From Streptomyces sp. QL37 (GTDB lineage: Bacteria > Actinomycetota > Actinomycetes > Streptomycetales > Streptomycetaceae): DNA of 64,000 nucleotides. Positions 25,748-38,868 of this stretch are shown one piece after another (the first letter of the stretch is position 1; each line of letters starts with the position of its first letter). The notes below the pieces were generated by a model that made no database searches, was not told where the DNA came from, and saw only the letters and a program-made list of their open reading frames with translations. Location: contig NZ_PTJS01000001.1 of NCBI RefSeq assembly GCF_002941025.1, forward strand, positions 5,895,472 to 5,959,471. Direction: 5' to 3'. The position numbers and the translations under genes were made by a program.

Positions 25748-27331
25748 ATGACCGTTGTGGACGAAATCCCGGGCGAGCCGAGCGACACGCGTGGCCGGGT
25801 GGCCGAACTGCTGGCACTGCGTGAGCAGGCCCGGCGTGGACCGAGCGACCGGGCGACCGAGGCGCAGCACGCCAAGGGCAAGCTGACGGCGCGCGAGCGC
25901 ATCGAGCTGCTGCTGGACGAGGGATCGTTCAAGGAGGTCGAGCAGCTGCGCCGCCACCGGGCGACCGGCTTCGGCCTGGAGGCCAAGAAGCCGTACACCG
26001 ACGGTGTCATCACCGGCTGGGGCACGGTCGACGGCCGGACGGTCTTCGTCTACGCGCACGACTTCCGGATCTTCGGCGGGGCGCTGGGCGAGGCCCACGC
26101 CACGAAGATCCACAAGATCATGGACATGGCCATCTCGGCCGGTGCCCCGCTGGTCTCGCTGAACGACGGTGCCGGAGCCCGCATCCAGGAGGGCGTCAGC
26201 GCGCTCGCCGGATACGGCGGGATCTTCCAGCGCAACACCCGGGCCTCCGGTGTCATCCCGCAGATCAGCGTGATGCTCGGCCCGTGCGCGGGCGGCGCGG
26301 CCTACAGCCCGGCGCTGACCGACTTCGTCTTCATGGTCCGCGAGACCTCGCAGATGTTCATCACCGGGCCGGACGTCGTCAAGGCGGTCACCGGCGAGGA
26401 GATCACCCAGAACGGCCTCGGCGGCGCCGACGTGCACGCGGAGACCTCGGGCGTCGCGCACTTCGCGTACGACGACGAGGAGACCTGCATCGCCGAGGTC
26501 CGCTACCTGATCGGCATGCTCCCGTCCAACAACCGGGAGAACCCGCCCGTCGTCCCGAGCGACGACCCCGCCGACCGGCGCGGCGACGTCCTCCTGGACC
26601 TGGTCCCGGCCGACGGCAACCGCCCGTACGACATGCACAAGGTCATCGAGGAGCTCGTCGACGACGGCGACTTCCTGGAGGTCCACGAGCGCTGGGCCCG
26701 CAACATCGTCTGCGCCCTGGCCCGGCTCGACGGCCAGGTCGTCGGCATCGTCGCCAACCAGCCGCAGGCGCTGGCCGGTGTCCTGGACATCGAGGCGTCC
26801 GAGAAGGCCGCGCGATTCGTCCAGATGTGTGATGCGTTCAACATCCCCATCGTCACTCTGCTGGACGTACCCGGCTTCCTGCCCGGCGTCGACCAGGAGC
26901 ACGGTGGAATCATTCGGCACGGCGCGAAGCTGCTCTACGCGTACTGCAACGCCACCGTGCCGAGGATCTCGCTGATCCTGCGCAAGGCCTACGGAGGCGC
27001 GTACATCGTCATGGACAGCCAGTCCATCGGCGCCGACCTCACCTACGCGTGGCCGACCAACGAGATCGCGGTGATGGGCGCCGAGGGCGCCGCCAACGTC
27101 ATCTTCCGCCGGCAGATCGCCGACGCCGAGGACCCCGAAGCCATGCGGGCCCGCATGGTCAAGGAGTACAAGGCCGAGCTGATGCACCCCTACTACGCGG
27201 CCGAGCGCGGCCTGGTCGACGACGTCATCGACCCCGCCGAGACGCGCGAGGTCCTGATCGCCTCGCTCGCGATGCTCCGCAACAAGCACGCGGACCTGCC
27301 GTCCCGCAAGCACGGCAACCCCCCGCAGTAG
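25748..27331 (+). CDS. pccB: Acyl-CoA carboxylase beta (carboxyltransferase) subunit
   Basis: 527 residues. This is the carboxyltransferase half of propionyl/acetyl-CoA carboxylase, moving CO2 from biotin on the separate alpha chain to acyl-CoA to make methylmalonyl- or malonyl-CoA for fatty acid and polyketide synthesis. Two crotonase-fold halves are visible. The N half has DGAGARIQEGVSALAGYGGIF and GPCAGGAAYSPALTDF. The C half has LLDVPGFLPGVDQEHGGIIRHGAKLLYAY and RKAYGGAYIVM. The residue after KAYGG-AY and the DVPGF loop carries the Asp that sets acyl length in PccB/AccB proteins. The epsilon subunit follows 64 bases downstream. Choice between pccB and accB naming is uncertain. Confidence 0.95.
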   Translation: MTVVDEIPGEPSDTRGRVAELLALREQARRGPSDRATEAQHAKGKLTARERIELLLDEGSFKEVEQLRRHRATGFGLEAKKPYTDGVITGWGTVDGRTVFVYAHDFRIFGGALGEAHATKIHKIMDMAISAGAPLVSLNDGAGARIQEGVSALAGYGGIFQRNTRASGVIPQISVMLGPCAGGAAYSPALTDFVFMVRETSQMFITGPDVVKAVTGEEITQNGLGGADVHAETSGVAHFAYDDEETCIAEVRYLIGMLPSNNRENPPVVPSDDPADRRGDVLLDLVPADGNRPYDMHKVIEELVDDGDFLEVHERWARNIVCALARLDGQVVGIVANQPQALAGVLDIEASEKAARFVQMCDAFNIPIVTLLDVPGFLPGVDQEHGGIIRHGAKLLYAYCNATVPRISLILRKAYGGAYIVMDSQSIGADLTYAWPTNEIAVMGAEGAANVIFRRQIADAEDPEAMRARMVKEYKAELMHPYYAAERGLVDDVIDPAETREVLIASLAMLRNKHADLPSRKHGNPPQ

Positions 27332-27705: not shown

Positions 27706-28287
27706 TCAGCGCAGGCGGGCCATGAGGGCGTGCTCGACCAGGGTGATCAGCGCGCTCTTGGCGTCGGCGCGGTGCCGGGCGTCCGTGGTGAGGATCGGGG
27801 TGTCCGGGCCGATCTGGAGGGCTTCGCGTACTTCGTCGGGTGTGTAGGGCTGGTGTCCGTCGAAGCCGTTGAGGGCGATGACGAAGGGGAGGCCGCTGTT
27901 CTCGAAGTAGTCGACGGCTGGGAAGCAGTCGGCGAGGCGGCGGGTGTCGACGAGGACGACGGCGCCGATGGCGCCGCGGACCAGGTCGTCCCACATGAAC
28001 CAGAAGCGGTCCTGTCCGGGGGTGCCGAACAGGTAGAGGATCAGGTCCTGGTCCAGGGTGATGCGTCCGAAGTCCATGGCCACCGTGGTGGTGGTCTTGT
28101 CCCCGGTGTGGGTCAGGTCGTCGATGCCCGCGGACGCGGACGTCATCACGGCTTCGGTGCGCAGCGGATTGATCTCCGAGACGGCACCGACAAACGTGGT
28201 CTTACCCACGCCGAAGCCCCCTGCCACCACGATCTTCGCCGAGGTAGTGGAGCGGGCCGCTCCGCCGCTAGAGCTTGCGAAGTCCAC
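27706..28287 (-). CDS. cvnD: Conservon GTPase-like protein CvnD, copy 1
   Basis: 193 residues. A small G-protein-like member of the conservon: P-loop GGFGVGKT at 23-30, a TPGQDRFWFMWDD switch-II region, and ALNGFD replacing NKxD, followed by TTDAR. CvnD is thought to associate with the membrane-bound CvnA-B-C complex as a GTPase switch. Its start lies 20 bases inside cvnC. The block 27806-28242 matches the second cvnD with a single mismatch, far more than the rest of the two conservons, so it has probably been homogenised. It ends 18 bases from the terminator. Confidence 0.93.
   Translation of the reverse strand: MDFASSSGGAARSTTSAKIVVAGGFGVGKTTFVGAVSEINPLRTEAVMTSASAGIDDLTHTGDKTTTTVAMDFGRITLDQDLILYLFGTPGQDRFWFMWDDLVRGAIGAVVLVDTRRLADCFPAVDYFENSGLPFVIALNGFDGHQPYTPDEVREALQIGPDTPILTTDARHRADAKSALITLVEHALMARLR
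27806..28242. repeat. Near-identical cvnD block, left copy
   Basis: 437 bp identical to 33088-33524 (direct repeat, offset 5282) except at 28192. Flanking cvnD sequence drops to scattered differences. It is a possible substrate for recombination that would delete one conservon. Confidence 0.9.
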
Positions 28288-28957
28288 TGAGCACCCTTTC
28301 GAGCAGTGTCACATCTGGCTGGCCGCCGGCGGCCTCGTCGCCGCCGGGCTGATGGATAGCGACGAGTCCGGCCTCGGCCAGGTCGGCGACGAGGATCCGG
28401 GCAACGCCGAGGGGGATCGAGAGAAGGGCCGAGACCTCGGCCACCGACTTGATCTCGATGCAGAGCCGGCAGATCCGCTGGTGCTCGGGCAGCTGCCCTT
28501 GCAGCCGGGCAGGATCGGCCGTGGTGCTGACCAGCGCCTCGATGGCGAGCTGGTACCGCGGCCGGGTCCGGCCGCCGGTCATGGCGTACGGACGGACCAA
28601 CGGGTTGTGCGCCGCGGGCTTCGAAGGCTGGGGGGCCTGGCGCTGGACCGGCTGGATGCGCGACGGCGGAGCCTCGTACCGCTGCGGAGGCTGCTGCTCG
28701 TGCTGCGGCTGCTGGTAGTGCTGCGGCTGCTCGTGCTGCGGGTAGTGCGGCTGCTGCTGCGGCCACCCGGAGCCCGGCTGCTGAGGCTGCTGCTGCCAGT
28801 TGCCCTGCTGGGGCTGCTGGTAGGGCTGATACGGCTGATAAGAGTCTTGCGAACCCTGTCTGCCGGGCATGGAGGGGTTGTCGAAACGATTGTCACCCTG
28901 CTCACCCGGAACCCGCTGACCGCCCTCGTACGGGTGTCCGCCTGTGGGTGCTGCCAC
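28268..28957 (-). CDS. cvnC: Conservon DUF742 protein CvnC, copy 1 (long, Gln/Tyr-rich N-terminus)
   Basis: 229 residues. The C-terminal 115 residues are DUF742, a winged-helix-like fold: VRPYAMTGGRTRPRYQLAIE, LPEHQRICRLC, VAEVSALLSIPLGVARILVADL and DVTLLERVLSGLRKL. The N-terminal 110 residues are low complexity, rich in Gln, Tyr and Pro (QPYQPYQQPQQ), and absent from the second copy, which is 135 residues long. In conservons CvnC bridges the sensor-like CvnA/CvnB and the CvnD GTPase. Two cysteines lie between helices (RICRLC versus RICHLC in copy 2). It overlaps cvnD by 20 bases. Confidence 0.92.
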   Translation of the reverse strand: MAAPTGGHPYEGGQRVPGEQGDNRFDNPSMPGRQGSQDSYQPYQPYQQPQQGNWQQQPQQPGSGWPQQQPHYPQHEQPQHYQQPQHEQQPPQRYEAPPSRIQPVQRQAPQPSKPAAHNPLVRPYAMTGGRTRPRYQLAIEALVSTTADPARLQGQLPEHQRICRLCIEIKSVAEVSALLSIPLGVARILVADLAEAGLVAIHQPGGDEAAGGQPDVTLLERVLSGLRKL

Positions 28958-29046
28958 GTTTCCTCCTCCGACTGCCGTTCGCCATCCCAGTGGTGCCGCG
29001 CCACCGCACCTTATGGCGCGGTGACGAGAAACGCACTGTCTGTCTA

Positions 29047-29469
29047 TTAGTTAAGAAGACTTCCCTGGAGTTCGGCGCGGAGATCCGGGGTAAGAACACT
29101 TCCTGCACGGTCCACGAGAAGTGCCATTTCGTACCCAACCAGACCGATATCGGCGTCCGGGTGGGCGAGGACGGCGAGTGAGGATCCGTCAGAGATGGAC
29201 ATGATGAAGAGGAATCCTCGCTCCATCTCCACAACGGTCTGATTCACGGCACCGCCTTCGAAGATCCGTGAAGCACCCGCGGTGAGCGACGTCAGACCGG
29301 AGGCGACAGCCGCCAGCTGATCGGCGCGGTCCCGTGGGAAACCCTCGGACATCGCCAGCAGGAGTCCGTCGGCGGAGACCACCACCGTGTGCGACACCCC
29401 AGGGGTGTTGTCCACGAAGTTGGTGATCAACCAGTTCAGATTCTGCGCCGCCTGGCTCATCGGGCTCAC
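29047..29469 (-). CDS. cvnB: Conservon roadblock/LC7 protein CvnB, copy 1
   Basis: 140 residues from GTG 29469; AGGAG lies 7 bases upstream and straddles the cvnA end, supporting this start over the ATG 9 bases later. Roadblock/LC7 fold (NLNWLITNFVDNTPGVSHTVVVSADGLLLAMS, GGAVNQTVVEMERGFLFIMSISDGSSLAVLA). It resembles MglB-type regulators that stimulate small GTPases, which fits a role acting on CvnD. The protein is almost the same as copy 2 but the genes differ at many silent sites. Confidence 0.93.
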   Translation of the reverse strand: MSPMSQAAQNLNWLITNFVDNTPGVSHTVVVSADGLLLAMSEGFPRDRADQLAAVASGLTSLTAGASRIFEGGAVNQTVVEMERGFLFIMSISDGSSLAVLAHPDADIGLVGYEMALLVDRAGSVLTPDLRAELQGSLLN

Positions 29470-29470
29470 A

Positions 29471-32400
29471 CTAACGCTCCTGGTTGTAGGTATTACTTGC
29501 GTCCGACCCCGCGGTCCGTCCCCGCAGGACACCACGCCGCAGGTTGCTCAACCTGCCGCGCACGTCCTCAGGGGCGCGGGAGACCTGTGGGCCGCCCTGC
29601 TGGGTCTGCTCCGCCGTGCCCTCGACCAGATTGGCCTTGGGCACGCGCCGGGGGAGTCCGGAAGGGGTGATCCCGCCCGCCTTCGGATCCCGGAGCTTCT
29701 CGGCCCGCTCCCAGCGCTCGTCGTTCGACGAACGCCAGTCGTCGGGCCGTTCCCCGTCGGCATGCTCCGCCTGCTGCGGCTGCTCCGGCCGCTGCCGCTG
29801 CCGCTGCTCGGGTGCGGCAGGCTGATCGTTTCCGCGGCCGGTGGGCTGCCAGTGCTGCTGGCCCGCACCCCGGCGCGGGAGGCCCGCCTCGGTCAGGTCC
29901 TGACCGGGGTTCGGGGTGGGCCCCGGGCGGTCGAAGCCTACGTGGTCCTGTGTCTCCGCGGGAGCGCTCGGGACCGCTTCCGCTTCGGGCTGCGCCTGGG
30001 GCTCGAACGCCCCCTGGTAGGAACCCTGGCCCGCCCAGTCGCCCTGGTGGGGGAGCCCCTCCTGCGGGGAGAACTGGTCGGTGTACTGCTCCTGCCGGGC
30101 GTCCGGAGCGGCGTACGCGGCTTCCGCGTAGGTGTTCTGCTGCGGGTCCTGGTAGCCGTTCCCGCCGGCGTACGGGTCGTAGCCGCCCTCGTAACCGGGC
30201 TGCGCGTACTCCTGCTGCTGCTGGGCGTACTGCTCCTGCGGGTACTGCTCCGGGGCGTACTCCTGCCGCTGCCCGGCGCCGTCGTCCTGGAACGATGGAC
30301 GCTCGCCGCCCGCCAGGGCCGCCCGCCGCTCCTCACGCATGAGTGAACGGTTCACCGGGTCCAGCTGCGGCGAGTCGGCCACCGAGGTGTCGTAGCGCGA
30401 GTCGTCGAAGCCGAGCTCCGCCGCCGTGCGCATCGGAACCTGCTGCGGCATCGGGTCGAACGTCTGCTCCTGCCCGGCCATGATCGAGGAGACCGTGAAG
30501 TCGTCCTGCGGGAGCCCTTCGCCACCGCCACCGTGGGTGATGGCGTCCGGCAGCATGACCAGCGACGTGGTCCCCGCCTGCTCGCCCGAGGGGCGCAACT
30601 GGACGCGGATGCCGTGCCGGTCGGCCAGCCGGCCGACCACGAACAGACCCATCCGCTGCGACACCGCGGCGTCCACGGTCGGCGGGTTGGCCAGCTTGTG
30701 GTTGATGTCCGCGAAGTCCTCGGCGGTGAGACCGATCCCCTTGTCGTGGATCTCGACCATGACGCGGCCGTCGGGGAGCCGGGTCGCGGTGACCCGGACC
30801 TTGGTCTGCGGCGAGGAGAACGTCGTGGCGTTCTCCAGCAGCTCGGCCAGCAGGTGCACGAGGTCGGTCACGGCCTGGCCGTGGATCTCGCTCTCCGGGA
30901 CACCGGTGAGCTCGATGCGCTCGTAGGACTCCACCTCGGAGGAGGCGGCCCGCAGCACGTCGACGAGCGGCACCGGCTGGTTCCAGCGGCGGCCGGGCTC
31001 CTCGCCCGCGAGGACGAGGAGGTTCTCGCCGTTACGGCGCATACGGGTGGCCAGGTGGTCCAGCTTGAAGAGGCTCTCCAGCTGGTCCGGGTCGGCCTCG
31101 TTGTTCTCCAGGTCGGTGATGAGGGTCAGCTGGCCCTCGATCAGCGACTGGTTGCGGCGCGACAGGTTGGTGAAGATCGCGTTGACGTTGCCCCGCAGCA
31201 TGGCCTGCTCGGCGGCGAGCCGGACGGCCTCGCGGTGCACCTGGTCGAAGGCGCGGGCGACCTCGCCGATCTCGTCCTGGCTGTTGATCGGGATCGGCTG
31301 CACCCGGGTGTCCACCCGGCCCGGCTCGGTCCGCGACAGCTGGTCGACCAGCATCGGCAGGCGCTGCTCGGCGATGCCGAAGGCGGCCGTACGCAGCTGG
31401 CGCATCGAGCGGCTCATCTGGCGGGCCATGAGACCGGCGATGATGAAGGCGGCCAGCAGCGAGATGATCACGATCGCCGCGTTGACGATGGCGTCGTTCC
31501 TGGCGTCGGTCGAGATCTCCGCCGCCTCGGTCACGGCCTTGTCGACGAGCTCGTTCTCGACCGTCGTGTAGCCGTCGAACTTCGCCGTGGCCGCGGCCAT
31601 CCAGGTCTCGGGCGTGATGCCCTTGGCCTTCAGGGCGTCGGGCTGCTTGCCCTGGCCGATCTGCTGGGCCATGCCGTCGAAGACCGAACCGTCGACGCTC
31701 GGAGGCGCCACGAACGGCTTGCCGGCGGCCTTGGCCTGCGCCTCGGCGGCCTTCAGCTGCTTGGCGCCCTCGGCGGCCTTGCCGGCCATGACCTGCTTGA
31801 GCCGTGCGGCGTCGGCCTCCGTACCACCGGAGACGAACTCGCCGAGGGCGATCTGCTCCAGGTAGTTGTACGAGCTGAACGCGGTGACCTGGCCGTTGAA
31901 GTTGCGCTCCTCCTGGCTCGGACGCACCAGCAGGTGCATACCGATCGAGCGCTGGAGCGATTCAGCGGCCTTGGCCAGCTCGATCGCGTAGACCGTCCGG
32001 CCGTAGCTGGTGATGTTGCCGGTGCCCAGGCCGAGCTCGTTGGAGAACTCCATCAACGAGTGCTGGACCTTGGTGTAGCCCTCTTCCGTCTTCACCGGGT
32101 CCATCGCCTCGGCGTAGGCGGCCTTGCGCAGCTCGGGGAGGAGCGGCTCCTCCACCTTGAACAGCTTCAGACGGCGGTGGAGGCCTTCCTTGTCCGGCAT
32201 GTTCTGCACGGCGTCGTCGAACTTCGCCGCGGCCGCGTCCGTGGTGGCGCGCACCTGCTCCACCTCGGCGGCGGTGCGCTTGTTGGACAGCAGCGGTTCG
32301 GCGGTGAGGTCACGCTCGTTCAGCAGCGCCTGTCCGTAGGCTGCCGCCGCCCGGACGACCAGGGCCGTCTTCTCGGCGTCCTGCGCCTCGTTCCAGGTGT

Positions 32401-32638
32401 CGATGGAGCCCTTCACCTGGAAGCCGCCCATGACAAGACCGACGAGTGCGGGGATCAGGAGAATCGCGTTCAGCCGGGTGGGTACCCGCCAGTTCCGCGG
32501 TGACAGCCGACTGGTGCTGCCGCCTGTCGGTCCCGCCTCGGACGACGTGTCCGCGGGCGGGGACAGCGCGGCGCGCGGCGGCGGCGTGAAGTTGCCCCGC
32601 TCCGGCTGGGCCGCGGAGCCCTCGTTGCTTCGCCTCAC
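29471..32638 (-). CDS. cvnA: Conservon sensor-kinase-like protein CvnA with NIT domain, copy 1
   Basis: 1055 residues from GTG 32638. A short basic and Pro-rich lead precedes TM1 (about 57-75). The outside domain (75-380) is the helical nitrate/nitrite-sensing (NIT) type, followed by TM2 (383-405) and HAMP. A helix carrying FKLDHLATRMRRN is the H-box-like segment, and a HATPase domain spans about 565-702 (N-box LLAELLENATTF). The last 350 residues are disordered, rich in Gln, Tyr, Pro and Glu, ending near DVRGRLSNLRRG. CvnA is thought to sense an external signal and pass it to CvnB-C-D rather than to a response regulator; none is adjacent. cvnB follows after one base. Confidence 0.93.
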   Translation of the reverse strand: MRRSNEGSAAQPERGNFTPPPRAALSPPADTSSEAGPTGGSTSRLSPRNWRVPTRLNAILLIPALVGLVMGGFQVKGSIDTWNEAQDAEKTALVVRAAAAYGQALLNERDLTAEPLLSNKRTAAEVEQVRATTDAAAAKFDDAVQNMPDKEGLHRRLKLFKVEEPLLPELRKAAYAEAMDPVKTEEGYTKVQHSLMEFSNELGLGTGNITSYGRTVYAIELAKAAESLQRSIGMHLLVRPSQEERNFNGQVTAFSSYNYLEQIALGEFVSGGTEADAARLKQVMAGKAAEGAKQLKAAEAQAKAAGKPFVAPPSVDGSVFDGMAQQIGQGKQPDALKAKGITPETWMAAATAKFDGYTTVENELVDKAVTEAAEISTDARNDAIVNAAIVIISLLAAFIIAGLMARQMSRSMRQLRTAAFGIAEQRLPMLVDQLSRTEPGRVDTRVQPIPINSQDEIGEVARAFDQVHREAVRLAAEQAMLRGNVNAIFTNLSRRNQSLIEGQLTLITDLENNEADPDQLESLFKLDHLATRMRRNGENLLVLAGEEPGRRWNQPVPLVDVLRAASSEVESYERIELTGVPESEIHGQAVTDLVHLLAELLENATTFSSPQTKVRVTATRLPDGRVMVEIHDKGIGLTAEDFADINHKLANPPTVDAAVSQRMGLFVVGRLADRHGIRVQLRPSGEQAGTTSLVMLPDAITHGGGGEGLPQDDFTVSSIMAGQEQTFDPMPQQVPMRTAAELGFDDSRYDTSVADSPQLDPVNRSLMREERRAALAGGERPSFQDDGAGQRQEYAPEQYPQEQYAQQQQEYAQPGYEGGYDPYAGGNGYQDPQQNTYAEAAYAAPDARQEQYTDQFSPQEGLPHQGDWAGQGSYQGAFEPQAQPEAEAVPSAPAETQDHVGFDRPGPTPNPGQDLTEAGLPRRGAGQQHWQPTGRGNDQPAAPEQRQRQRPEQPQQAEHADGERPDDWRSSNDERWERAEKLRDPKAGGITPSGLPRRVPKANLVEGTAEQTQQGGPQVSRAPEDVRGRLSNLRRGVLRGRTAGSDASNTYNQER

Positions 32639-32987
32639 TCGACCAACAACCTCTCGGCGTCGGCACCTACGTCGTGCCGGATTATCGTTCAGGAGCCGTA
32701 CTACTGGGTAGTTCGAGGCATTGCAGCACGCGGAGCGGTCGCGTTCCAAACAGTCGGAATGAGTGATTCCGACTGTGACCCGGCGTCGATAAAACGGGCA
32801 TAAAGAGCGAGCCCCGTCAAAAGGCGAGGCTCGTATGAGCGCAGTGGTACCGATCGTGCGCGTCGGGTGTTGATCGGGCTCCAATTCTCTGTCGAAATGT
32901 TATGAACACGGGGGCGGATCGTGTCAAAGGACACAGGCCGCCCCCGTGTGACTACAGCAAGTTCCGTAGATCGCTACCGACTTGCGG
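32639..32987. other. 349-bp gap between the two conservons
   Basis: It holds the promoter region of the left conservon and the terminator of the right one (32907-32948). It is AT-richer than its surroundings around 32660-32900. No coding frame or further repeat is seen. Confidence 0.6.
32907..32948 (-). terminator. Two-tier terminator hairpin after the right conservon
   Basis: Outer arms CACGGGGGCGG / CCGCCCCCGTG enclose a second stem GTGTC-aaag-GACAC. It lies 40 bases after the cvnD stop, so the two conservons are separate transcripts. Confidence 0.85.
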
Positions 32988-33569
32988 CTACTTCAGCCGG
33001 GCCATCAACGCGTGTTCGACCAGGGTGATCAGGCCGCTCTTGGCGTCCGCCCGGTGCCGGGCGTCCGTCGTGATGATCGGGGCGTCGGGGCCGATCTGGA
33101 GGGCTTCGCGTACTTCGTCGGGTGTGTAGGGCTGGTGTCCGTCGAAGCCGTTGAGGGCGATGACGAAGGGGAGGCCGCTGTTCTCGAAGTAGTCGACGGC
33201 TGGGAAGCAGTCGGCGAGGCGGCGGGTGTCGACGAGGACGACGGCGCCGATGGCGCCGCGGACCAGGTCGTCCCACATGAACCAGAAGCGGTCCTGTCCG
33301 GGGGTGCCGAACAGGTAGAGGATCAGGTCCTGGTCCAGGGTGATGCGTCCGAAGTCCATGGCCACCGTGGTGGTGGTCTTGTCCCCGGTGTGGGTCAGGT
33401 CGTCGATGCCCGCGGACGCGGACGTCATCACGGCTTCGGTGCGCAGCGGATTGATCTCCGAGACGGCACCGACGAACGTGGTCTTACCCACGCCGAAGCC
33501 CCCTGCCACCACGATCTTCGCCGAAGTGGTAGCGCGGGCCGTCCCGCCGCTAGAGCTTGCGAAGTCCAC
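32988..33569 (-). CDS. cvnD: Conservon GTPase-like protein CvnD, copy 2
   Basis: 193 residues with the same P-loop GGFGVGKT (23-30), TPGQDRF and ALNGFD motifs as copy 1. The proteins differ only near both ends (for example TARATTS versus AARSTTS at 10-16, IIT versus ILT, KSG versus KSA, final K versus R). Between codons about 16 and 161 there is one nucleotide difference, and it is silent. It overlaps cvnC by 20 bases, just as in copy 1. Confidence 0.93.
   Translation of the reverse strand: MDFASSSGGTARATTSAKIVVAGGFGVGKTTFVGAVSEINPLRTEAVMTSASAGIDDLTHTGDKTTTTVAMDFGRITLDQDLILYLFGTPGQDRFWFMWDDLVRGAIGAVVLVDTRRLADCFPAVDYFENSGLPFVIALNGFDGHQPYTPDEVREALQIGPDAPIITTDARHRADAKSGLITLVEHALMARLK
33088..33524. 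repeat. Near-identical cvnD block, right copy
   Basis: Partner of 27806-28242; 436 of 437 bases the same. The abrupt edges inside the gene point to gene conversion rather than recent whole-gene duplication. Confidence 0.9.
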
Positions 33570-33957
33570 TGAGCACCCTTTCGAGCAGTGTCACATCCGG
33601 CGCGCCGCCGGCCTCTCCGTTGCCCGGCTGGTGGATGGCCACCATGCCGGCTTCCGCCAGGTCCGCCACGAGGATCCGTGCCACACCGAGGGGCATGGAC
33701 AGCAGGGCCGAGACCTCGGCCACCGACTTCACCTCGCGGCACAGGTGGCAGATCCGCTGGTGCTCGGGGAGCAGGGTCCCCAGGTGGGCGGGGTCCGCTG
33801 TGGTGCTGACCAGTGCCTCTATCGCGAGCTGATAGCGAGGCCGGGTCCGGCCGCCGGTCATGGCGTACGGACGGACCAGCGGCTGGTCACCTTCACCGTC
33901 GTACGACGCGTGGTGCAGTGCGCCGTACGGATCGGGTGAGGCGGGTGGCGGGGTCAT
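33550..33957 (-). CDS. cvnC: Conservon DUF742 protein CvnC, copy 2
   Basis: 135 residues, a minimal DUF742 protein with only about 20 residues before LVRPYAMTGGRTRPRYQLAIE. Otherwise it is close to copy 1 (LLPEHQRICHLCREVKSVAEVSALLSMPLGVARILVADLAEAGMVAIHQPG). The lack of the Gln/Tyr-rich N-terminus is the main difference between the two conservons at this position. A 134-base gap separates it from cvnB. Confidence 0.93.
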   Translation of the reverse strand: MTPPPASPDPYGALHHASYDGEGDQPLVRPYAMTGGRTRPRYQLAIEALVSTTADPAHLGTLLPEHQRICHLCREVKSVAEVSALLSMPLGVARILVADLAEAGMVAIHQPGNGEAGGAPDVTLLERVLSGLRKL

Positions 33958-34091: not shown

Positions 34092-34514
34092 CTAGTGGAG
34101 CAGACTTCCTTGTAGTTCGGCACGGAGATCAGGGGTGAGGACAGTCCCCGCACGGTCGACGAGAAGTGCCATCTCGTACCCGACGAGACCGATGTCCGCG
34201 TCCGGGTGTGCGAGAACGGCGAGTGAAGAGCCGTCGGAGATGGACATGAGGAAGAGGAAACCTCTCTCCATCTCCACGACCGTCTGGCTCACGGCGCCGC
34301 CTTCGAAGATCCGTGAGGCACCCGCGGTCAGCGACGTCAGACCGGAGGCGACAGCCGCCAGCTGGTCGGCGCGGTCGCGCGGGAAACCTTCGGACATCGC
34401 CAGCAGCAGGCCATCCGCGGAGACCACCACCGTGTGGGACACCCCTGGGGTGTTGTCCACGAAATTGGTGATCAGCCAGTTCAGATTCTGCGCGGCCTGA
34501 CTCATGGGGCTCAA
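34092..34514 (-). CDS. cvnB: Conservon roadblock/LC7 protein CvnB, copy 2
   Basis: 140 residues from TTG 34514, which directly follows the cvnA stop (TAG-TTG) with AGGAG 6 bases upstream; the ATG at 34505 has no well-placed site. Roadblock/LC7 domain as in copy 1, with about four amino-acid changes (GGAVSQ, FLFLM, RAGTVL, final H). Role as for copy 1: presumed partner and activator of the CvnD GTPase. Confidence 0.93.
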   Translation of the reverse strand: MSPMSQAAQNLNWLITNFVDNTPGVSHTVVVSADGLLLAMSEGFPRDRADQLAAVASGLTSLTAGASRIFEGGAVSQTVVEMERGFLFLMSISDGSSLAVLAHPDADIGLVGYEMALLVDRAGTVLTPDLRAELQGSLLH

Positions 34515-37500
34515 CTAACGCTCCTGCTGGTGAGTGGGGCCGAGTTGGAAACTGCCGGTAGACGAGCCGGTGTTGGCCTGTCGTCCCTGCTGGATGCCCC
34601 GGCGGAGATTGGTCAGACGCCCGCGTACGTCATCCGGCGCACGCGAAACCTGAGGTCCGGACTGATGATTCTGCTGTTGAGCAGTGCCCGGCACCAAATT
34701 GGCACGTGGGACACGGCGCGGCAGTCCGGAAGTGGTGATCCCGCCGGCGGCGGGCTTCTTGACCCGCTCCGCCTGCCGTACGAGGTCGTCGTTGGGCGAA
34801 GCGCGCCATGAACTGGTGGCTCCGGTGTCGGCCGCACCACGCCGCGGCATGGGCGGAGGCGGGTTGCCGGCGGGCTGGGGAGCGGCCGGTGCCTGCGGTT
34901 CCGCGGCGGGCGGCTGCTGGCCACCCTGCTGCGGTCCGTGGAACCAGTTCGTCTCCAGCGTGTCGTAGAGCGGCGTACGCCCGTCACCGGGACCGGCCGG
35001 CGGCAGCACCTCGGGCTGCTGGGGCAGGGCCGGGCGCTGCGGCAGTTCACCCGCGGAGGGGACGGGCGGACGCGGTGCGCCGAAGTCGGCGTTGTCGCGG
35101 CGGCGCGGTGCCGGAGCCTGCGGGCCCTGGGCGCCGAAGGCCTGGTCCTGCTGGGGGCGGTTGCCGAAGCCCTGGTCCTGCGGCGGCTGGGCGTTGAAGT
35201 CCGGGCGGGCGAACTGCGCGGTGCTCGCCGGGTCCTGCCCCTGCGGGACGTGGGGAGCCTGCGGCGCCTGCGGTGCCGAGAAGTCCGGGCGGGCGAACTC
35301 CGCCGTGGCACCGGGGCCCTGACGGTCGTTCATCGGCGGACGCTGGTTCTGCGGGCTGAACGGCTGGTTCGGTGCGGAGGTGCCCGGCCTGGTGAACCGG
35401 CCGGCCTCGTGCTCCTCGTGACCACGCGGCGAGTCCGGCTGTGCCCGGCGGGGGGCACCCTGCTCCTCGACACCCCAGCTCGTGCTCTGCGGGCGCTGCG
35501 GCTGCGGGTTGCCGCCGGGCAGCTCGGCCCGGGGACCGCCGGAGGGCGGGAGCTGGCGGCCGGGACCGCCGGGCTGCTGCGAGCCGCCCTGGCCGGGCTG
35601 GTTGCCCTGGCCGGGCTGGGGCTGCTGCGGAGCCTGGCGTCCGGGCTGGCCGCTCTGCGGGCCGGAGTGGCCGAAGAGATTGGGCCGGCCCGAGTCCGCA
35701 CCGGCCGAGGGGTCCTGCGGGGGGCGTGCGCCGGGCCGGGCACCGCCGGCGAAGGCACCGGCGAGGCCGCCACCCTGACGCGGAGCCTCGGAGCGGCCCT
35801 GGCCGGGCAGACCGGGGCCCTGCTGGCCCGGGTTCTGCTGGCCGGAGCCCTGCTGCGGCGGACGCGGTCCGCCGTCGCGGGTGGGCAGTGCGGCGTCGCG
35901 CGTGGGCAGCGCGGCCCGGGGGGCCGAGCCCGATCCGACCTGGCCGCGCGGGGCGGCCGAGCCGAGTCCCTTGGCGGGGGCCGCCGGGGGACCGGAGAGA
36001 CCGGGGCGCTGGGCGGACGCGGCGGGAGCGCCGCCGCCGGCGAGGAGCCCGCCCGGGGCGCCCTGCTGGCCCTTGCCCTGCTGGCCCGGCTTCGACGGCT
36101 GCTTGCCGCCGTGCGCGACCTCCATGGGCAGCATGACCAGCGCGGTCGTACCGCCGGAGTCGGAGGGCCGCAGCTGGATGCGGATGCCGTGACGCAGGGA
36201 CAGCCGGCCGACCACGAAGAGACCCATGCGGCGGGAGACGGAGACGTCCACGGTGGGCGGCGAGGCGAGCCGCTCGTTGATCGCGGCCAGGTCCTCGGGG
36301 GAGAGGCCGATGCCGGTGTCGTGGATCTCGACGAGCACACGCCCGTCGGGCAGCGCGTGACCGGTGACCCGGACCTTCGTCTGCGGCGAGGAGAACGACG
36401 TGGCGTTCTCCAGCAGCTCGGCGAGGAGGTGCACGAGGTCGTTGACGACGCGGCCGGCGACCTCGGTGGCGGGCACCGCGGCCAGTTCGATGCGCTCGTA
36501 CTGCTCCACCTCGGAGGCGGCGGCACGGAGCACGTCGACGAGCGGCACGGGCCGGGTCCAGCGGCGGCCGGGCTCCTCGCCCGCGAGGACGAGGAGGTTC
36601 TCGCCGTTACGGCGCATGCGGGTCGCGAGGTGGTCGAGCTTGAAGAGCGAGGACAGCTGGTCCGGGTCGGCCTCGCGGGACTCCAGCTCGGAGATGAGCG
36701 AGAGCTGACGCTGGATGAGGCCCTGGCTGCGGCGCGAGAGGTTGGTGAACATCGCGTTGACGTTGCCTCGCAGCAGCGCCTGCTCGGCGGCCAGTCGGAC
36801 CGCCTCGCGGTGCACGTCGTCGAAGGCCGCGGCCACCTGGCCGATCTCGTCCCGGGAGTGCACACCGACCGACTCGACGGAGGTGTCGACGTCCTGCGGG
36901 TCCGTCTCGGAGAGCTGACGGACGAGCTCCGGCAGCCGGTCCTGGGCGACCCGGGTCGCGGTGTCCTGGAGCCGCCGCAGGGAGCGGATCATGGACCGCG
37001 CCACGACGAAGGCGCCGACCAGCGACACACCGAGGACGATCAGGATGATCGCACCGTTGAGGATCGCGTCGCGCTGCGACTCCTCCTTGAGCTCGCGGGC
37101 CTTGCTCTCCATCTCACCGAGGAGCGTCTCCTCGATGGTCTTCATGGCCTGGATCTTGTTGGAGCTCTGGTCGTACCAGTCCATGTACGTGCGCGTCTTG
37201 CCGCTGCCCTCCATGCCCAGAGGGCTGTCGAGCACCTTCTTCGCGTACATGTCGGCGGCGGTTATCTCGGGATTCCCGTTGTCCAGCGGTGCCAGCAGCT
37301 CGGCGGAGCTCTTGCCGGTGGACTCGTAGGTCGTCTCGAAGGTCTTGAGGGTCGTGCTCGCCTTGCCGAGGGCGTTGCGGCCGAACGCCTGGTCGTTGTC
37401 GTTCAGGTGCGTCTTGTTGCTGTCGCCGCCGGGCAGGGCCGCGGCGATGATGGCGCGCTCGACGGAGGCGTACTCCTTCGAGGAGGAGAAGGCGGCCAGC

Positions 37501-38288
37501 GCACGCGTCCGCTTGATCATCTCCGGGCTGCTGGTGGCCTGTGCCATGTCCTGCGAAAGGCTCAGCAGCGACGTGATCAGCTGGCTGTACTGGTCGATCG
37601 TGTTGAGACTCGGGCTGTCGCCGGCGTACGCGTCCTTGCGGATGCTGGTGATGTTGCCCAGCTGCGTGCCGATCTGGCTGACGCTCGCGTGGATGCTGTC
37701 CAGGGCCGCGTCGCCGGGGGTGTTGCCGATCTCGTCGGTCGCCTCGAAGAAGGCGGCCTTCGCGCGGTCGGTGCGCTCCCGGGGCTGGGTGACCTTGTAG
37801 TCGGTGGCCTTCACGCCGTTCGACAGGGGGCCGGCCGACCGGTCGCGCTCCTCCTGGAGCGCGTTGGCGAGCGCGGTCGCCTTCTTGGTCATCTGGGTCA
37901 GCAGCTGCATGTGCTCCAGCTGGTCCATGTCGTTCATGGACTCGTTGATCCGCAGTCCGCCCAGCGTGGTCGCCGCGACCACGGGGAGGGCGAGCAGGGA
38001 GACCAGGCGGGTGCTGATGCGCCAGTTGCGCAGCGCCAGCCGTGAGCCGGCGGAGGTGGGACCGGCCGGCTTCAGGGGCGGAGGTGTGGCTTCCGCGCCG
38101 GCGACGCCCGTCGTGCCGGAGCGCTGGGCGCGGTCGCCGCCGTCACCGGAGGCACCGGGATTCTGGGCGTGCTGGGGCGAGGAACCGCGGTCGTTACCGC
38201 CGCGCGGTTCCTGATCCGCCTGGGTTTCCCCTCGGCCCTGGCGGGGCTGGGGCGACCCCATGCCATCCCTCTTGAAACGTCCCTGCAC
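34515..38288 (-). CDS. cvnA: Conservon sensor-kinase-like protein CvnA with NIT domain, copy 2 (extended tail)
   Basis: 1257 residues. GTG 38288 was chosen because the resulting MQGRFKRDG start is the usual one for this family. A disordered N-terminus of about 90 residues is followed by TM1 (93-113), the NIT-type sensing domain (115-408), TM2 (410-430), HAMP, the FKLDHLATRMRRN segment and a HATPase domain (about 590-722, N-box LLAELLENATSF). The last 530 residues are very rich in Pro, Gln, Gly and Ala and include repeated FARPDF units (TAEFARPDF, TAQFARPDF), much longer than copy 1. Both tails end in a conserved basic segment (DVRGRLTNLRRG), a candidate docking site. No response regulator gene is nearby. 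Confidence 0.93.
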   Translation of the reverse strand: MQGRFKRDGMGSPQPRQGRGETQADQEPRGGNDRGSSPQHAQNPGASGDGGDRAQRSGTTGVAGAEATPPPLKPAGPTSAGSRLALRNWRISTRLVSLLALPVVAATTLGGLRINESMNDMDQLEHMQLLTQMTKKATALANALQEERDRSAGPLSNGVKATDYKVTQPRERTDRAKAAFFEATDEIGNTPGDAALDSIHASVSQIGTQLGNITSIRKDAYAGDSPSLNTIDQYSQLITSLLSLSQDMAQATSSPEMIKRTRALAAFSSSKEYASVERAIIAAALPGGDSNKTHLNDNDQAFGRNALGKASTTLKTFETTYESTGKSSAELLAPLDNGNPEITAADMYAKKVLDSPLGMEGSGKTRTYMDWYDQSSNKIQAMKTIEETLLGEMESKARELKEESQRDAILNGAIILIVLGVSLVGAFVVARSMIRSLRRLQDTATRVAQDRLPELVRQLSETDPQDVDTSVESVGVHSRDEIGQVAAAFDDVHREAVRLAAEQALLRGNVNAMFTNLSRRSQGLIQRQLSLISELESREADPDQLSSLFKLDHLATRMRRNGENLLVLAGEEPGRRWTRPVPLVDVLRAAASEVEQYERIELAAVPATEVAGRVVNDLVHLLAELLENATSFSSPQTKVRVTGHALPDGRVLVEIHDTGIGLSPEDLAAINERLASPPTVDVSVSRRMGLFVVGRLSLRHGIRIQLRPSDSGGTTALVMLPMEVAHGGKQPSKPGQQGKGQQGAPGGLLAGGGAPAASAQRPGLSGPPAAPAKGLGSAAPRGQVGSGSAPRAALPTRDAALPTRDGGPRPPQQGSGQQNPGQQGPGLPGQGRSEAPRQGGGLAGAFAGGARPGARPPQDPSAGADSGRPNLFGHSGPQSGQPGRQAPQQPQPGQGNQPGQGGSQQPGGPGRQLPPSGGPRAELPGGNPQPQRPQSTSWGVEEQGAPRRAQPDSPRGHEEHEAGRFTRPGTSAPNQPFSPQNQRPPMNDRQGPGATAEFARPDFSAPQAPQAPHVPQGQDPASTAQFARPDFNAQPPQDQGFGNRPQQDQAFGAQGPQAPAPRRRDNADFGAPRPPVPSAGELPQRPALPQQPEVLPPAGPGDGRTPLYDTLETNWFHGPQQGGQQPPAAEPQAPAAPQPAGNPPPPMPRRGAADTGATSSWRASPNDDLVRQAERVKKPAAGGITTSGLPRRVPRANLVPGTAQQQNHQSGPQVSRAPDDVRGRLTNLRRGIQQGRQANTGSSTGSFQLGPTHQQER

Positions 38289-38868
38289 TAGCGTCGCAAC
38301 CTCTGGACCAGGCGTCCCTCCGCGCGTACGCGATGGGACGGTGTCGGCGTCGTGGGGCGCTGGACGCGCCCCATGGTGGTCGTGAGTGACCGGCGTACTT
38401 CCCCCTCCCGCCGCCACTCGGCGCTGCGTTGCGCCCCTGCGCGCTGGGCCTGAAACCCGCGGCGGTGCGTGGAATTCCAGCACAGTGGAGGATCTCCAAC
38501 AAGGCCCGCGTGCCGGGCTGTGACCTGGATGACACGGTGTGATGACCGGGTAACAAGGCGTGGAGCGTGTTCAGGGGCAAAGCGGTCAATTAAGGGTGAC
38601 GACCCGCGGGGCGGCAGGTGTCCCAGACGCCATGATCGGGAGCGGAATAGGAGATTCAGAGCCGTATTGTCTGGTTTGGATCCCATGATCAACTGCCTGC
38701 AATGGGTGGTTTGTCACCAAGTTCGTGAGCAAACTCACATGATGATCGCCGTCTCATCCCGGCCAAGGCGGGGAATCGGATGTTTAGCCTGGCGCTTTAC
38801 AGGGACAGCGAATCCGACAACCGGCGCACCTCCGGGCAGCGCCCCAGCGGCAAGGACGCATACGGCAG
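38289..38868. other. 580-bp region upstream of the right conservon
   Basis: No convincing reading frame. The stretch 38600-38790 is AT-richer and probably holds divergent promoters for cvnA (leftward) and the small ANPRRT protein (rightward). No clear operator or RNA gene is seen. Confidence 0.5.

Follow-up and report, generated by a model that had tools for sequence, protein, structure and literature searches.

Why should two copies of one gene be almost letter for letter the same over most of their length, when the operons that carry them differ widely elsewhere? The question is raised by a stretch of 64,000 nucleotides from Streptomyces sp. QL37 (contig NZ_PTJS01000001.1, positions 5,895,472 to 5,959,471; hereafter the window), the minus strand of which holds two complete conservons arranged head to tail, unit 1 being the upstream one. 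Our answer, which we hold with considerable confidence, is that the two tandem conservons stem from one early duplication and that recombination repeatedly overwrites cvnD and, in some lineages, cvnB, while cvnA and mostly cvnC are kept. In both units Pfam domains identify, in this order, a kinase-like A, a roadblock B, a DUF742 protein C and a GTPase D, and the genes and near-identical cores are placed as follows.

34515-38483, minus strand: cvnA1, sensor histidine kinase-like (Pfam NIT, HAMP, HATPase); start codon uncertain
34092-34505, minus strand: cvnB1, roadblock/LC7 protein of 137 aa (Robl_LC7), homogenised in some lineages
33550-33957, minus strand: cvnC1, DUF742 protein of 135 aa, which keeps its paralog identity
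32988-33569, minus strand: cvnD1, Ras/MglA-like GTPase of 193 aa (Pfam ATP_bind_1)
33088-33524, minus strand: core of cvnD1 (gene nt 46-482), nearly identical to that of cvnD2
29471-32884, minus strand: cvnA2, sensor histidine kinase-like (Pfam NIT, HATPase; HAMP score just under the cut-off); start codon uncertain
29047-29460, minus strand: cvnB2, roadblock/LC7 protein of 137 aa (Robl_LC7), 97% identical to CvnB1
28268-28957, minus strand: cvnC2, DUF742 protein of 229 aa with a long Gln/Pro-rich N-terminus
27706-28287, minus strand: cvnD2, Ras/MglA-like GTPase of 193 aa (Pfam ATP_bind_1)
27806-28242, minus strand: core of cvnD2 (gene nt 46-482), nearly identical to that of cvnD1

The 582-nt genes cvnD1 and cvnD2 differ at 25 positions, namely nt 27, 28, 37, 39, 42 and 45, then nt 96, and then 18 positions from nt 483 onward. 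Within nt 46-482, a run of 437 nt, the single difference is the silent change at nt 96 (TTC/TTT, Phe), and the other 24 lie in the gene ends; an earlier note on this DNA had reported a 437-bp match broken by one silent base, and both this and its placing at 33088-33524 and 27806-28242 are exact. Using a rate-weighted permutation, in which the 20 differences found within nt 1-576 were placed by site rates taken from other genomes, a run as long with at most one difference was obtained in 0 of 100,000 draws (longest 381), and these rates predict 13.3 differences in nt 46-482 where 1 is observed. At the level of codons the pair differs by 13 silent (the stop codon included) and 6 replacement changes, leaving the proteins 97% identical. 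CvnB1 and CvnB2 are also 97% identical, with 48 of 414 nt differing in 43 silent and 4 replacement codons. The wide divergence of the two units outside cvnD, which the same note had pointed out, is evident in these 43 silent codons of cvnB, in CvnA1 and CvnA2, whose best segment reaches 45% identity over 703 aligned positions, and in CvnC1 and CvnC2, which have 135 and 229 aa and share 88% identity over a common stretch of 111 positions.

The wider comparison was built on 80 loci around cvnA2 (the best 80 of 281 relatives) and on regions from further genomes of the genus and family; L-numbers label loci and G-numbers label genomes. For the first set, 80 of 137 loci were kept and 57 were left out (duplicate contigs, fewer than two cvnD, partial cvnD or runs of N); the removal of L166, with an internal stop in the cvnD1 translation, left 79 pairs. 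For the extended set, 111 of 170 loci were kept after six duplicate contigs had been removed, the other 59 comprising 37 with a partial cvnD, 18 with fewer than two cvnD, 3 with N and 1 with an internal stop. Of the 111 pairs, 86 belong to Streptomyces, the window and L139 included, and the other 25 to further genera of its family; the extension from 79 to 111 pairs gave the same result. L139 has a truncated cvnD1 and was excluded from the 85-pair Streptomyces figures but counted in the 111-genome trees, the identity profile, the site counts and the run tests. Both copies were present in the fetched DNA for C at 109, B at 108 and A at 31 of the 111 loci, and 19 of 20 fetched upstream stretches yielded a cvnA1 row for the A tree (L227 gave none). 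The loss of rows biases the sample against near-identical pairs, because the most similar cores are those at which drafts break. Trees were built using IQ-TREE and FastTree, and approximately unbiased (AU) tests were run on a sample of 24 genomes.

Across these genomes the cvnD paralogs are silently more alike within a genome than orthologs are between genomes. For 85 Streptomyces pairs the silent difference of the D core is 0.110 within a genome, whereas between genomes it is 0.263 for D1-D1, 0.241 for D2-D2 and 0.257 for D1-D2; for the 25 pairs of other genera the values are 0.134 within versus 0.298, 0.281 and 0.292 between. The silent core sites of cvnD thus carry no paralog memory, and gene conversion between the copies, as proposed in the earlier note, is strongly supported by the gap between 0.110 and 0.241-0.263. 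In the IQ-TREE tree the D1 and D2 cores pair as sisters within their genome in 53 of 111 cases (40 Streptomyces and 13 of the 25 others), and 47 of these 53 pairs have support of at least 80 or are identical. The note had expected the cores to cluster within strains and the flanks between strains, and this is borne out by a count of 4 of 109 for the C domains and by the AU tests, which reject a D1 clade for the core (p 3.7e-07) and do not reject a C1 clade (p 0.14). Sister counts by FastTree are 54 for the D core, 26 for B and 3 for C. Per genome pair, the D core holds 26.4 genome-specific versus 1.7 paralog-specific sites (110 genomes), and in the same type of run test as in the window p was < 0.01 for 60 of the 111 genomes, 6 being too alike for testing.

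It might be argued that there is no conversion at all and that codon bias or a constraint on DNA or RNA fixes the silent sites of the core, the protein of which is indeed strongly conserved (1.5-3% aa difference). The same silent sites, however, differ by 0.24-0.26 between genomes against 0.11 within, and D1 of one genome is as different from D1 of another as from D2, so that this explanation, which we find scarcely credible, was rejected because the sites vary between genomes. Nor are all pairs equally near-identical and free of silent change, a pattern that would have spoken against conversion: within-genome core differences range from 0 to 53 of 435 (110 pairs, L139 excluded) and silent differences are found between genomes. 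Two loci stand apart. In G133 the cvnD copies are 95% and 79% identical to the query, possibly an escape from homogenisation (the fetched locus held N and was left out). In L139 (G011), at 524-2015, no cvnB1 or cvnC1 match was found in the fetched DNA and a cvnD1 stub, starting at about codon 64, abuts an open reading frame (ORF) resembling by eye a subtilisin-like protease; cvn1 looks to have been lost, or the region misassembled.

Near-identical repeats may also be made by an assembler, through a collapse or a polishing step that copied one core onto the other, and drafts do break at these cores: among the best 80 loci of 281 relatives, contigs end inside cvnD1 or cvnD2 at 32 (inside both at 23), and contigs are shorter than 6.5 kb at 31. 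Of the 36 Streptomyces genomes that consist of more than ten contigs, 13 had fewer than two cvnD matches at E <= 1e-85, versus 0 of the 29 that consist of ten or fewer (Fisher p 2.6e-4, calculated on rounded match rows and with true losses perhaps among the 13). Breaks within the cores mean that the assemblers met a true repeat, which is contrary to an artefact, and the near-identity is seen in single-contig or near-finished genomes as well, L123 and L134 among them having 0 core differences; an artefact is therefore most improbable.

The near relative L123 also dates the conversion in the window. Three core sites differ between the two genomes where both copies agree within each, and nine paralog-specific sites in the gene ends of cvnD are common to both, so that conversion has acted since their split and has spared the ends. 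Edges close to those at nt 46 and 482 are seen in near relatives (43-482 in L123 and L124, 43-479 in L042). The sharp edges within the gene described in the earlier note are a property of the window's lineage, and do not extend to the family: in L044, L073, L089 and L157 (4 of 79 genomes) D1 and D2 are identical from nt 1 to nt 572-576. The last codon of cvnD is paralog-specific, being Lys in D1 of 64 of 79 genomes and Arg in D2 of 78 of 79, and past it the neighbours differ, cvnA2 following D1 and the carboxylase ORF described below following D2. In Streptomyces the mean identity per 50 nt is 0.83-0.95 in B, drops to about 0.50-0.58 in the B-C spacer and the first part of C, and is 0.67-0.91 in the remainder of C and 0.83-0.98 in D. 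The 437-bp match is best read as the state left by the latest rounds of conversion in the window's lineage; the single recent and local event that the note had envisaged is not borne out, as homogenisation recurs across the family and also affects cvnB.

Homogenisation proceeds gene by gene, widely in D, in some lineages in B and rarely in C. B1 and B2 are sisters in 24 of 108 pairs (8 Streptomyces and 16 of the 25 others) and C1 and C2 in 4 of 109 (both by IQ-TREE), and a B1 clade is rejected by the AU test (p 2.5e-08). Outside Streptomyces the silent difference of cvnB is 0.106 within genomes versus 0.323 and 0.330 between (25 pairs), a strong homogenisation, with 35.6 genome-specific versus 1.2 paralog-specific sites per genome pair; in Streptomyces the corresponding figures are 0.293 versus 0.348 and 0.321 (83 pairs) and 12.4 versus 8.9 sites. 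The C domain of Streptomyces behaves in the opposite way, at 0.319 within genomes versus 0.272 and 0.238 between orthologs (84 pairs), with 3.6 genome-specific versus 25.2 paralog-specific sites per genome pair; outside the genus the contrast is weaker (0.313 within versus 0.356 and 0.324; 13.1 versus 10.6 sites). The A kinase domain, compared in 31 Streptomyces pairs, gives 0.243 within versus 0.189 and 0.160 and no homogenisation. In Streptomyces, then, the C domain and the A kinase domain keep their paralog identity and the homogenised tracts are bounded. In L191 (G071) the two units are nearly identical over B (0.002), over the C domain (0.033) and over the D core (1 of 435), which indicates that conversion can span cvnC.

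Differences in the proteins follow the same lines. Between orthologs, the A kinase domain differs by 2.4-3.7% of amino acids, the D core by 3.2 and 1.6% and B by 3.7 and 2.7%; between paralogs the A kinase domain differs by 24%, and the C domain by 15% compared with 5.5% between orthologs. As the A kinase domain is conserved among orthologs and yet 24% different between paralogs, conservation alone does not have the power to decide what is homogenised. The contrast between ortholog and paralog differences suggests that A and, less strongly, C carry paralog-specific functions and that B and D hardly do so.

Many separate and recent tandem duplications, without any conversion, would also make the copies of one genome resemble each other, and C1 and C2 of three sampled genomes outside the genus do cluster together (six rows, support 99). 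However, the A2 genes of these same three genomes (L186, L198 and L209) lie within the single A2 clade formed in the tree of the CvnA kinase domain (31 rows, support 100; root weakly supported), and the C domain of Streptomyces sorts by paralog, with zero sister pairs in 78 genomes and a best split of 0.987. Separate recent duplications were rejected on the A tree, and we regard them as very unlikely. The A2 clade places the duplication before the split of the homogenising lineages, with the reservation that the root is weakly supported. A single conservon was found in the 15-16 kb fetched for L218 and L219, which represent two genera of the family, and for L222 and L223, which represent two further families of its order, and one duplication before most of the family radiated, followed by repeated homogenisation of D and B, fits best.

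Several observations weigh against this history. Streptomyces cvnB is only weakly homogenised, and within-genome distances of B and D are uncorrelated (Spearman -0.06, p 0.55, 108 pairs), which implies that B and D do not share their homogenising events. C1 and C2 are sisters in L190, L191 and L193, so that C, too, is converted at times; homogenisation reaches it in a few genomes, and no absolute bar protects it. The A2 branches of L190 and L193 are moreover long, and the A2 proteins of these two loci stand about equally near to A1 and to A2. Finally, the ends of D hold 9.3 genome-specific versus 1.6 paralog-specific sites per pair over all genomes, and with so little paralog signal the protected ends of the window are not general. 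At the level of sequence comparison, we nevertheless regard as demonstrated that homogenisation recurs, that it is limited gene by gene and that it came after the duplication.

As to the mechanism, the direct repeats, which in the loci compared lie 4.9-6.7 kb from each other (about 5 kb), would recombine homologously, a break in one cvnD being repaired from the other copy. The conversion would be RecA-dependent and non-reciprocal, with tracts ending where the flanks diverge, and in Streptomyces NucS probably takes the place of MutS as mismatch guard; in the host genome a match was found for NucS and none for MutS_V. Of the conversions, those in B and D would be tolerated or favoured and those in A and C mostly lost, so that both sensor complexes would run on effectively one GTPase/roadblock pair. 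Selection for an interchangeable GTPase switch fits this pattern, and the operon could be a mosaic kept by selection, in which the sensor gene A and the adaptor gene C are held apart while the GTPase gene D and the gene B of its roadblock regulator are again re-unified by conversion, giving two sensory systems with one pool of switches; this we propose tentatively, thinking it more probably wrong than right.

The same limits could arise from neutral conversion that depends on homology alone, without any need for exchangeability: B and D would have stayed alike enough to recombine, A and C would have passed the threshold, and the edges would mark the drop in identity. The order of the median within-genome divergence (D core 0.046, B 0.107, C domain 0.188) is as expected and the cores stop where differences cluster; in Salmonella, tuf conversion tracts are blocked by large sequence differences (available part of PMC5485169), and in M. 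smegmatis NucS restricts the recombination of diverged sequences (available part of PMC8228993). This explanation has to face the A kinase domain, which matches B and D in its conservation among orthologs and yet is unhomogenised, so that something must first have made A, and less strongly C, differ; and C was converted in three well-supported pairs outside the genus, which means that recombination does reach it. We consider neutral conversion a real possibility, falling not far short of an even chance.

For repeated conversion between conservons, the closest known parallel is that of the Salmonella tuf genes, likewise two bacterial paralogs homogenised by tracts that lie within the gene, are processive and halt at large differences (PMC5485169, in the portion available). 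Unlike the tuf genes, which are single genes 762 kb apart (same portion), the conservons are tandem four-gene operons homogenised gene by gene beside divergent neighbours, and their conversion is known from sequences alone. Both units resemble the known cvn1 and cvn2 in the order A-B-C-D and in the four domain types, and the accessible texts of PMC13343842, PMC8510531 and PMC9739842 make no mention of homogenisation between conservons; that of PMC8510531 merely speculates on cross-talk (Cvn8). According to the same text, CvnD is the best conserved conservon protein and CvnB the second, and Komatsu and co-workers found binding of CvnA9 to CvnB9 and CvnC9, and of these two to CvnD9. CvnD and CvnB are also akin to the pairs of MglA Group 2 and MglB, being co-evolving MglA and MglB homologs (Wuichet and Sogaard-Andersen 2014, PMC4316618, as far as available); the available text already notes adjacent duplicated conservons, but explains unmatched pairs by the loss of one mglA, and the words 'gene conversion' are absent from its main text. 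No report of conservon homogenisation was found in the literature within reach, which did not include subscription papers (Takano 2011 on cvn1, Komatsu 2006), and no parallel from bacterial signalling was found among the matches listed.

Other features of the locus and its host can be given briefly. Downstream of the units, on the plus strand, lies an ORF (25748-27331) which we take to be the beta subunit of an acyl-CoA carboxylase. The names cvn1 and cvn2 presumably correspond to S. coelicolor SCO5544-5541 and SCO5540-5537, an assignment we base on position. In the accessible table of PMC9739842, SCO5544 is CvnA1 and SCO5540 is CvnA2, a spacing that fits tandem four-gene units. The host genome gives 12 CvnD and 13 CvnB matches, the next best after the cvn1/cvn2 pair being 67% identical for D and 52% for B. 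At C1:181968-184225 of this genome two CvnB-like matches flank one cvnD match (C1:182573-183091), and this conservon may have a second roadblock gene. CvnC2 has an N-terminal extension of about 90 residues, rich in Gln and Pro, which CvnC1 is without. The tails of CvnA1 and CvnA2 are long low-complexity sequences that end in a common stretch with GLPRR, in agreement with the LPxR motif given for CvnA in the available text of PMC4316618. A sequence search of the PDB returned only a weak Rab-18 match (E 0.0044), and a plasmid search added nothing to the result.

The finding has a practical side, in that short-read assemblies often break here and cvnD can seem absent or shortened in drafts; in strains like QL37 short-read expression data may fail to separate cvnD1 from cvnD2. 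It also touches on the question of how separately the many conservons of one cell are kept. The pattern predicts that Cvn1 and Cvn2 share an exchangeable GTPase and, in some genera at least, a roadblock partner, and that they differ by their sensor and CvnC. If the mosaic described above is true, sequence alone would mark which parts of a conservon confer specificity and which are interchangeable; and if the GTPase is indeed exchangeable, single cvnD1 or cvnD2 mutants would be buffered by the other copy.

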